Below are positions 17,113 through 19,134 of a stretch of DNA of 64,000 nucleotides, in pieces. Under the pieces are notes generated by a model that was not told the origin of the DNA, made no database searches, and saw nothing but the letters and a program-made list of their open reading frames with translations. The translations under genes and the position numbers were made by a program. How positions within the stretch are numbered: position 1 is the stretch's first letter; every line of letters starts with the position of its first letter. Source of the DNA: a virus; IMG/VR virus record IMGVR_UViG_3300034104_003795, positions 152,370-216,369 of that record; one strand, 5' to 3'.

Positions 17113-18396
17113 TTATAACTTTCCGTAATCTAAACCCCAACTTGCTTTTACAGGAAACCCACTACCTTCAATGATTTCCTTCAATCCTTTAACCAATTCT
17201 TTATCCACATCAGTAGGAACATCAAAAAGGAATGAATCGTATGTGTATAAACAAAACTTTATATCACTCCCCTTTATATAACCCAATACCTTTCCCATAA
17301 CATCTACGTTCATCTCAGTCTCAACCGCTTGTAGTAGATAGTTAAATACTTTTTGTGGGTTAGCCCCTTCAATCCACTCCAAAGGAATAATACGATGTGG
17401 TGTTTGTAAGTATCCCAGCTTTTGTGTTTCAATCCATAGGTTATCAATATAATCAGCTACGGCATTGAAATATGGAATTTGGCGGAAATCATCATCAATA
17501 CCACCATACAATAATTGGAACGTAACCCCTTTGGATTCATCAACACTACACCCATATTGGTCAGCTAACCATTGGTGTACGTTACCATCCGGCATTTCGA
17601 ACTTAATCAACTTACCGATAAGACGAGGGTGATACGCATTATAATCCATTTGTAAGAATATCCCATCCGATACAAACACATCTCTACTACCATCCGATTT
17701 ATTCAATGCCGCATAGTTCACACCGCCATGACGATTGGATGGACGACCGGTTACGGTGAATGGATTGTATTCGGTATATACCACATCTCCTTTTAAGTGT
17801 TTCTGGGCTTGTGGCCATCTATCAATAAATTTTTTCTCATCGACCCGAACCCCATATCCCTCAATCTCTGAAAGGATGGGTAAGAAGATATCGTTGTACC
17901 AATTATAAGTTTTAGATTTTTGTCTATAAGTTTTTCTCAATTCCGGTTCTATCGCTTCCGCAAGTTTAAGAATGGGAATAGATTGAATGACATCTTCTTT
18001 GTAACCTTTGTGTAATAAGGGAGCTACCAGGTGTTGTAGTGGTTGTTGGTAGTCTATCGTTTCACCTGTTTTTAAGAAATAAGCGGTATCAATGTCATTC
18101 AATCCTTCCCTTATATTTTGAAACGATTGTAGTAGCTTTTTCTTTTGGAATACCCACTTATCCCCTTTTGTATTTAAGATACCCTCTATTAGTGATTTAG
18201 AGAGTGATAGAGAGTCTGTATGTTGATGTGGTAGAATATATCGGTCTGTCAAAGTTCTTACGAAAATAAAGGATATATGTGTGTTTCGTGGATGTTTATC
18301 ATTATCCACCCACATAGGATACCAAACCGATGGTTCAGTTTCCAAAATCCTCTTTAATTCATCAATCTCACCAATATTTTCTACTATCCTTATCAT
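17113..18396 (-). CDS. Truncated family A DNA polymerase
   Basis: This 427-aa protein carries the polymerase domain of family A enzymes: TGRPSNRHGGVNYAALN (about 216-232), motif A FLQMDYNAYHPRLIG with Asp251, motif B KGVTFQLLYGG (289-299), and motif C LYTYDSFLFDV with Asp387. Both catalytic aspartates are kept. The usual His before the motif C Asp is Tyr, and the Arg four residues before the motif B Lys is missing. No intact 3'-5' exonuclease is seen in the first 190 residues, so it is much shorter than PolI or T7 polymerase. It may be the replicative enzyme of a phage lacking family B polymerase, or an accessory enzyme. It overlaps the small upstream gene by 29 nt. Confidence 0.85.
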   Translation of the reverse strand: MIRIVENIGEIDELKRILETEPSVWYPMWVDNDKHPRNTHISFIFVRTLTDRYILPHQHTDSLSLSKSLIEGILNTKGDKWVFQKKKLLQSFQNIREGLNDIDTAYFLKTGETIDYQQPLQHLVAPLLHKGYKEDVIQSIPILKLAEAIEPELRKTYRQKSKTYNWYNDIFLPILSEIEGYGVRVDEKKFIDRWPQAQKHLKGDVVYTEYNPFTVTGRPSNRHGGVNYAALNKSDGSRDVFVSDGIFLQMDYNAYHPRLIGKLIKFEMPDGNVHQWLADQYGCSVDESKGVTFQLLYGGIDDDFRQIPYFNAVADYIDNLWIETQKLGYLQTPHRIIPLEWIEGANPQKVFNYLLQAVETEMNVDVMGKVLGYIKGSDIKFCLYTYDSFLFDVPTDVDKELVKGLKEIIEGSGFPVKASWGLDYGKL

Positions 18397-18649: not shown

Positions 18650-18681
18650 CAAATATACGAAAAAATCCCCAAATTACCAAA
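18650..18681 (-). promoter_or_regulatory. Host-type promoter of the small-basic-protein and polymerase unit
   Basis: TTTGG (18681-18677), 19 nt, TATATTTG (18657-18650), located between the tmRNA 3' end and the 88-aa gene. It leaves a leader of about 10 nt. Confidence 0.78.
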
Positions 18682-18704
18682 TGTAAATTGAGGATTCAAA
18701 AAAA

Positions 18705-19091
18705 TGGTGGAGATGAGGGGAATCGAACCCCTGTCTTACGAAGTAATCATAATACCAGCATGTCACACGTTTAGGATAAAGTTTAATCTTATTTACTTTC
18801 CAAAATAATTGGGGCCGTATGGTTAGTACAGCTTTCCACCAACCTATCAGTTTTAGAGAGCCGATAGGTAGAGCTCCTTTTTGTTCACTTCTTTTTTAAA
18901 CCCCATGAGTGATACGGGAGGTGATTAGGCTGCTACAGCTAAATCAGCACCCATGAATGACATTACATCATCAAAGGTCCAAGTAGATAATTCTACGTCA
19001 GTTATTGTTTTGTACAGATTTAAAGACATCTAGCACTTCTGTCTACGTGTGGTACTACCATTCTCATCGCAATCAAATCCATGGCATCCCC
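18705..19091 (-). ncRNA. ssrA: tmRNA (transfer-messenger RNA)
   Basis: A complete 387-nt one-piece tmRNA. The 5' GGGGATG pairs with CATCTCC near the 3' end (7 bp, one G-U), followed by discriminator A and an encoded CCA. The T arm is AGGGG TTCGATT CCCCT. The D-loop-like region GGATTTGATT follows the 5' end. The tag reading frame (18999-18925) is in the middle and is followed by pseudoknot-forming segments such as ACCTATCGG ... CTGATAGGT. It rescues stalled ribosomes with SmpB and tags nascent chains for degradation. It has a host-type promoter ending 11 nt upstream. It sits between baseplate and polymerase genes, not in a tRNA cluster. Confidence 0.95.
18925..18999 (-). other. tmRNA tag-peptide reading frame (24 codons plus stop)
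   Basis: The proposed resume codon GAC at 18999 is preceded by AATAACT, similar to the E. coli context ATAGTC before its resume codon GCA. The encoded tag starts DVELSTWTFD, continues DVMSFM and ends GADLAVAA before TAA. The terminal Ala-Ala is the ClpXP-type degron end. Known Bacteroidetes tags are about 8-10 residues (for example GENNYALAA), so this is more than twice as long. The resume codon is an inference; the C-terminal frame is clear. Confidence 0.75.
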
Positions 19092-19102
19092 ATATAATTA
19101 TG

Positions 19103-19134
19103 TAAATATACGAATAATAATTTAGATTACCAAA
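19103..19134 (-). promoter_or_regulatory. Host-type promoter of the tmRNA gene
   Basis: TTTGG (19134-19130), 19 nt, TATATTTA (19110-19103). It begins on the base after the TAA of the 121-aa gene and lies 11 nt before the mature tmRNA 5' end, so little 5' trimming is needed. Confidence 0.75.

Follow-up and report, generated by a model that had tools for sequence, protein, structure and literature searches.

The 64-kb window analyzed here, part of a 273,997-base virus record, carries what its sequence indicates to be an intact phage tmRNA gene under selection, with a long tag that is itself selected and found only in viruses. We consider it probable that the gene yields a functional tmRNA, which rescues ribosomes and adds a tag of 24 residues made up of a host-readable degron and a selected, virus-specific module. 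Phage tmRNAs are usually treated as spare host parts, and neither a phage tmRNA nor a long tag is without precedent (the Mesoplasma tag has 27 residues); what is new is the virus-specific module that precedes the degron, whose conservation implies a reader.

The identity of the gene rests on two calls. ARAGORN placed a tmRNA at exactly positions 18705 to 19091 on the minus strand, which the original prediction had not specified and which is the strand of all window features given with coordinates below, with the coding part at positions 93 to 167 of the gene and the tag DVELSTWTFDDVMSFMGADLAVAA followed by a stop. Using cmscan against Rfam, we obtained a match to RF00023 at the same coordinates and over the full length of the model (positions 1 to 374 of 374), with 83.1 bits and an E value of 9.5e-31 against a gathering score of 47; it is the sole Rfam match at gathering score in the window. 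The original prediction had described a complete one-piece tmRNA with acceptor stem, T arm, and encoded CCA and had proposed a covariance model as a check, and both programs agree with it down to the coordinates. In this ssrA gene of 387 nucleotides, the 5′ strand of the acceptor stem (GGGGAUG, 19085 to 19091) pairs with the 3′ strand (CAUCUCC, 18709 to 18715), which is followed by an A and the encoded CCA (18705 to 18708), and the T arm (GGGGUUCGAUUCCCC) lies at 18717 to 18731. The acceptor stem contains a G3.U70 wobble, a pair that marks tmRNAs for charging with alanine.

Comparison with relatives supports these structures. Among 41 dereplicated tmRNAs, all acceptor and T-stem pairs are formed with the exception of a single cell in the alignment (locus L099, whose 5′ end was misset by ARAGORN). 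The T stem is paired in all 41, compensatory changes occur at acceptor pairs 4 to 7 and T-stem pairs 1 to 4, and the G3.U70 pair is present in the window and in 40 of the 41, the exception again being the sequence with the misset 5′ end. The tRNA-like domain (TLD) is thus documented both by the full-length model match and by stems that remain paired while covarying. Pseudoknot prediction had also been proposed as a check, and a pseudoknot, PK1 (19012 to 19044), is found upstream of the resume codon. Its stem S1 is formed by 19040 to 19044 with 19024 to 19028 and its stem S2 by 19033 to 19036 with 19012 to 19015, with additional pairing of AGA (19029 to 19031) and UCU (19016 to 19018). Both stems show compensatory changes in the relatives (S1, AGACA/UGUCU, AGUGG/CCACU, AGGAUU/AAUCCU, CGGGUU/AAUCCG, CGAGUU/AACUCG, AAGGUU/AACCUU, and others; S2, GGUUCU/GGAAUC, GAUGG/CUAUC, GUAAG/CUUGC, and others), and it is this covariation that supports PK1, since single-sequence scores were weak relative to those of shuffled sequences.

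The resume-codon context ACAAUAACU (19000 to 19008), recognized from the RF00023 match and from the relatives, ranks with the best-conserved nucleotides in the gene (identity, 0.84 to 0.88) and is directly followed by GAC GUA GAA UUA UCU, where ARAGORN sets the start of the tag. From there, an open frame of 24 codons (18928 to 18999) runs to a TAA stop (18925 to 18927). A tag of this length lies outside the class of short tags of about 8 to 15 residues that is common to cellular tmRNAs. The original prediction had named a resume codon nearer to the stop as the outcome that would count against a long tag; the codon following the AAUAA-type context is, however, GAC, and in relatives the frame is kept from GAC to the stop, with changes in length by whole codons only, so that the prediction of a 24-codon tag ending in Ala-Ala holds.

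To collect relatives independently of the tag, we used the neighboring gene, which encodes a 427-amino-acid protein resembling DNA polymerase family A (17113 to 18396), as bait and obtained 80 loci. The tag family was present a short way upstream of the bait in 72 of them, and locus L100 holds a further member with one more variation (VELSTMTWEDAMAFVGADYAIAA). Four of the 80 contigs stop before the tmRNA site, leaving 76 informative loci, of which 73 carry a family tag of 23 to 28 residues (lengths observed in the family: 23, 24, 25, 26, and 28); at the other three (L065, L134, and L137), no tmRNA was found at the syntenic site. These loci also bear on the reading that the true tag is short and that the long frame is an artefact or is conserved because of RNA structure. 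Such misreading does occur in the software output, as ARAGORN called a different, short frame (VNKPEHYLSAP and similar) in several relatives, but the long frame is intact in these relatives too, and the codon-position pattern and frame controls given below exclude a pure effect of RNA structure. We therefore assign this reading next to no probability and regard it as refuted by the comparative evidence, as far as sequence allows.

We then asked where the tag occurs, scanning sequence collections with a single nine-residue pattern taken from the tag alignment; the counts accordingly cover tags that match this pattern. IMG/VR viral contigs contained 293 pattern stretches, of which 230 encode the tag, and in the best 80 of these 230 contigs, the tag frame was present in all, with ARAGORN tmRNA calls within the fetched stretch in most. 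In the bacterial and archaeal genomes (84,980 species), by comparison, none of the 58 pattern stretches encodes the tag. A tblastn search of isolate phages (50,697 records) gave no match to the tag, a query of 24 residues being a weak probe, and our literature search found no description of this tag family. As far as the searched collections show, the tag is thus specific to viruses.

Tags of other kinds were also seen. Scanning the viral contigs for the canonical tmRNA start returned only short bacterial-type tags of 11 to 12 amino acids, and the tag attributed to Bxz1 had no tblastn match among the isolate phages. Long tags of unrelated sequence were noted in other viral contigs, with 27 amino acids in L006 and L050, 20 in L040, L057, and L060, 28 in L053, and 21 in L055, so that long private tags may be common in phage tmRNAs. 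In the tmRNA at LR756508.1:92434-92880 (L251), for which ARAGORN misplaces the frame and gives the tag GRRKPLSW, the frame after GTAAACAAC reads ADYESAGFTAEDFAQMDGESLYHGSERKPAAV up to a stop and likely comprises about 32 amino acids.

To assess whether the tag is conserved as a peptide, we compared 57 distinct nucleotide versions from 162 places, corresponding to 50 distinct cores. Pairwise differences at codon positions 1, 2, and 3 numbered 2,884, 2,186, and 6,872, and dN/dS (Nei-Gojobori) was 0.285 in the tag frame, compared with 1.23 and 2.28 in the other frames; within the core's first eleven codons, the value was 0.22. Many loci in this full set had been gathered by tag similarity, which favors amino acid conservation, and we therefore repeated the test on the loci obtained with the polymerase bait only (24 distinct versions). 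Here, the differences were 354, 444, and 1,012, and dN/dS came to 1.3 and 2.1 in the two alternative frames but 0.34 in that of the tag. The low in-frame ratio, also seen in the loci fetched without the tag, shows that selection keeps the tag peptide itself. We do not claim that the gene is most conserved in its tag: the tag's conservation of 0.80 in the full set, compared with 0.49 to 0.69 elsewhere outside the resume context, comes from a set partly gathered by the tag, and in the synteny-only set, conservation of the tag (0.81) matches that of the TLD (0.83 to 0.84), although it exceeds that of PK1 and of the sequence following the tag.

The tag divides into two parts, a module of the form (V)E[LM]ST[WM]TF[ED]DxM(A/S)F and a degron-like end, (A)DYAVAA. 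The N-terminal module of the window is VELSTWTFDDVMSFMG (18949 to 18996) and, with 230 viral and no cellular encoding loci, is virus specific. Among the 50 cores, Glu and Ser are invariant, and Asp and Met (48 each), Phe (47), and Thr (46) are nearly so. The C-terminal part (18928 to 18948) reads ADLAVAA in the window and ADYAVAA in most relatives; the last Ala is present in all 50 cores and the penultimate one in 49, and AVAA is the kind of small, nonpolar end that ClpXP-type proteases would be expected to accept. Describing the tag as acidic, as had been done originally, suits the conserved core, a stretch of acidic and aromatic residues and Met, but not the hydrophobic end that follows. An amphipathic helix in the module received no statistical support (P = 0.07 to 0.19 for the core), and no tag motifs were found in the other phage proteins of the record, outside the window.

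Partners for the tmRNA were sought in the whole record. Neither SmpB nor ClpP was found in these 274 kb, and Lon, ClpX, ClpS, SspB, and FtsH were absent among the Pfam matches listed for 159 of the larger proteins encoded outside the window. To qualify as a tmRNA, a phage RNA does not need SmpB encoded in cis. Given the lack of SmpB and ClpP, and of Lon, ClpX, and FtsH among the listed matches, the module, if it is read, would be read by a host protein or by a phage protein that went unrecognized. The family does include a phage-borne smpB: in viral contig G011 (L048), smpB lies directly upstream of a tmRNA whose tag of 28 amino acids, ANNVVELSTMTFEDVMALVSNEEMAVAA, belongs to the family of the window, and the setting includes nucleotide and pterin genes matching phage families. 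The smpB gene is likewise directly upstream of the tmRNA in contig G007 (L040), and this arrangement distinguishes both modules from the record of the window, in which none was found. Both contigs thus carry smpB as well as tmRNA (L271 and L256 in G007; L273 and L259 in G011); the SmpB of G011 matches PHROG 6791, which is listed as of unknown function.

The genomic setting is that of a T4-like phage, with the major capsid protein Gp23, portal gp20, a T4-type terminase, and tail sheath, tail tube, and baseplate genes. The tmRNA was expected between structural and replication genes, and it is indeed flanked by the baseplate and tail region on one side and on the other by the polymerase-like gene, a nuclease, a helicase, UvsX, and SSB. 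Its 5′ end is preceded by a putative promoter (19104 to 19134), composed of TTTG (19131 to 19134), a spacer of 20 nucleotides, and TATATTT (19104 to 19110), the end of which is 12 nucleotides from the tmRNA. We take this to be the kind of promoter used by Bacteroidota, and since it is conserved across syntenic relatives, the sequence agrees with the proposal that the gene would be expressed from its own host-type promoter. Between the tmRNA and the next gene lies a terminator-like inverted repeat, AAUCCUCAAUU ... AAUUUGGGGAUU with a U-run (18660 to 18704), which was identified by eye, as were similar repeats in relatives; an automatic scan allowing loops of at most 8 did not list the repeat of the window. 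The tag is also kept in other branches, where the tmRNA is part of tRNA arrays or sits behind different genes. Among isolates, the polymerase-like gene has its nearest relatives (26 to 32% identity) in a 484-kb uncultured phage, Microcystis phage Mel-JY01, and Flavobacterium phage immuto; when genomes were scanned with this polymerase, neither a cellular nor a binned copy turned up. A Bacteroidota host is likely, judging from the promoter type and from the relative in the Flavobacterium phage.

Taken together, we propose the following mechanism. The phage tmRNA would be transcribed from its own promoter, after which the host alanyl-tRNA synthetase (AlaRS) would load it with alanine, and host SmpB would bind it and, together with EF-Tu, deliver it to ribosomes that have stalled on broken mRNA or that are starved of tRNA during infection. 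Having switched to the GAC codon, such a ribosome would add the 24 residues to the unfinished protein and be freed. Trans-translation with host SmpB is the most likely mode of action, and we infer from the gene itself the activity of the tmRNA, its use of host SmpB and AlaRS, the degradation of tagged proteins, and the recognition of the N-terminal module. The C-terminal ADLAVAA or ADYAVAA would act as a host-readable degron like the ordinary ssrA degron, in front of which the virus-specific module VELSTxTFDDxMAFVG would have been gained. Selection on the module argues that something binds or reads it, and its most likely effect in infected cells would be to hand tagged proteins over to a particular adaptor or protease. 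That the tag might alter the choice of protease or adaptor had been part of the original prediction; purifying selection on the tag and its absence from cellular genomes strengthen this possibility. In its most novel form, it states that a large group of T4-like giant phages reprograms protein quality control through its own tmRNA, with a specific adaptor or protease, of host or phage, binding to the virus-only module, and this we put forward tentatively, as a real possibility short of an even chance. If so, proteins from stalled ribosomes would be handled unlike host-tagged ones, for instance by faster degradation to obtain amino acids, or phage-tagged proteins would instead be kept away from a host route. 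The record also encodes 26 tRNAs covering all 20 amino acids, in an array on the minus strand at L145:5230-12009 (about 85.2 to 92.0 kb of the record). Such a complete complement of tRNAs points to a broader strategy in which the phage provides RNAs for translation, and the tmRNA and the tRNAs are probably a kit that keeps translation going when host RNAs fail. In line with such a strategy, phage tRNAs have been proposed to offset host defenses that target tRNAs (PMC10264068).

The same gene could be an ordinary supplementary tmRNA, an extra ssrA that sustains ribosome rescue and feeds host ClpXP through its degron, with the additional residues serving generically as a linker, for reach, or for unstructured initiation. 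The nearly invariant C-terminal Ala-Ala would fit, as would the variation in tag length from 23 to 28 residues, the long tags found elsewhere without a known special role, and a record with no SmpB or ClpP found and with no phage protease or adaptor among the Pfam matches listed. A mere linker, however, should drift, whereas purifying selection acts on the module and E, S, F, D, and M are nearly invariant there, and we hold this account to be unlikely while granting it appreciable weight. Less probable still is a protease switch as in Mesoplasma, in which the longer tag would steer tagged proteins away from ClpXP and toward Lon or some other protease of the host. In Mesoplasma florum, the one well-studied case of a protease switch through a longer tag, the organism's own Lon specifically recognizes the 27-residue tag AANKNEENTNEVPTFMLNAGQANYAFA (PMC9097571). 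In both this tag and that of the phage, a stretch containing TF precedes an end of the [ND]YA type, a resemblance seen by eye only that is short and may be due to chance, and the Ala-Ala end lost in M. florum is kept in the phage.

We regard it as very improbable that the RNA is a decoy or inhibitor, sequestering host SmpB or blocking trans-translation in the host, a role that has been proposed for the TLD-only RNA of mycobacteriophage DS6A. TLD-only phage RNAs have been described (PMC4131195), and a similar element exists in the related 484-kb huge phage LR756508, where an RNA of 112 nucleotides (LR756508.1:414804-414915, L253) matches both ends of the tmRNA model with 58 bits and has no room for a tag, much like the DS6A element. 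The family of the window has, in contrast, maintained the tag frame, the resume context, and PK1, none of which a decoy would need.

Compared with known systems, the window's gene shares with bacterial one-piece tmRNAs (RF00023) the TLD with G3.U70, the T arm, PK1, the resume codon, the Ala-Ala end of the tag, and a downstream structured region, and it differs from them in its 24-residue tag with a virus-specific module, its location in a phage, and the lack of smpB in the record. tmRNAs are known from mycobacteriophages and phage G (PMC4131195), and one survey that covered 18,146 phage genomes found them in 402 (PMC9004378); huge phages carry both tmRNA and SmpB (PMC7162821), and the tmRNA of Wildcat is very highly expressed (PMC7474061). 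Like the window's gene, those of Bxz1, Catera, Wildcat, Bacillus phage G, Melnitz, and the huge phages of Al-Shayeb 2020 are complete ssrA genes, often accompanied by many tRNAs. The tag of Bacillus phage G, however, has 13 residues (AKLNITNNELQVA), and the Melnitz tmRNA is a two-piece molecule of the alphaproteobacterial type, unlike the one-piece tmRNA of the window. The M. florum tag resembles that of the window in its length, in the extra residues before its end, and in having a particular protease as reader (PMC9097571), but it is cellular and ends in YAFA instead of AVAA, and no shared ancestry is shown. Hundreds of phage contigs thus share a tag that selection preserves residue by residue and that occurs in no searched cellular genome. 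Conservation of this tag of 23 to 28 residues by selection, together with its absence from the searched cellular genomes, suggests that these viruses may have rewritten the label placed on unfinished proteins, and it raises the question of who reads the extra module and what a phage gains by labeling failed proteins differently from its host. If the reader is real, viruses would control the proteolysis branch of trans-translation, and the module might provide a new orthogonal degradation tag.

Other genes in the record were noted in passing. A protein of 396 amino acids encoded on the minus strand at positions 128335 to 129525 of the record (L147:8335-9525) contains a RuBisCO large-chain catalytic domain (PF00016; E, 6e-33); among solved structures, RuBisCO chains and RuBisCO-like enolases come nearest to it, and its gene is adjoined by glycan-synthesis genes. 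The first 120 kb of the record (L141 to L146) encode a heme oxygenase, a ferredoxin-dependent bilin reductase, an S-AdoMet lyase, and an S-AdoMet decarboxylase, as well as NifU-like, TerC, and SPFH/Band 7 proteins, a cyclophilin, and a peptide deformylase.
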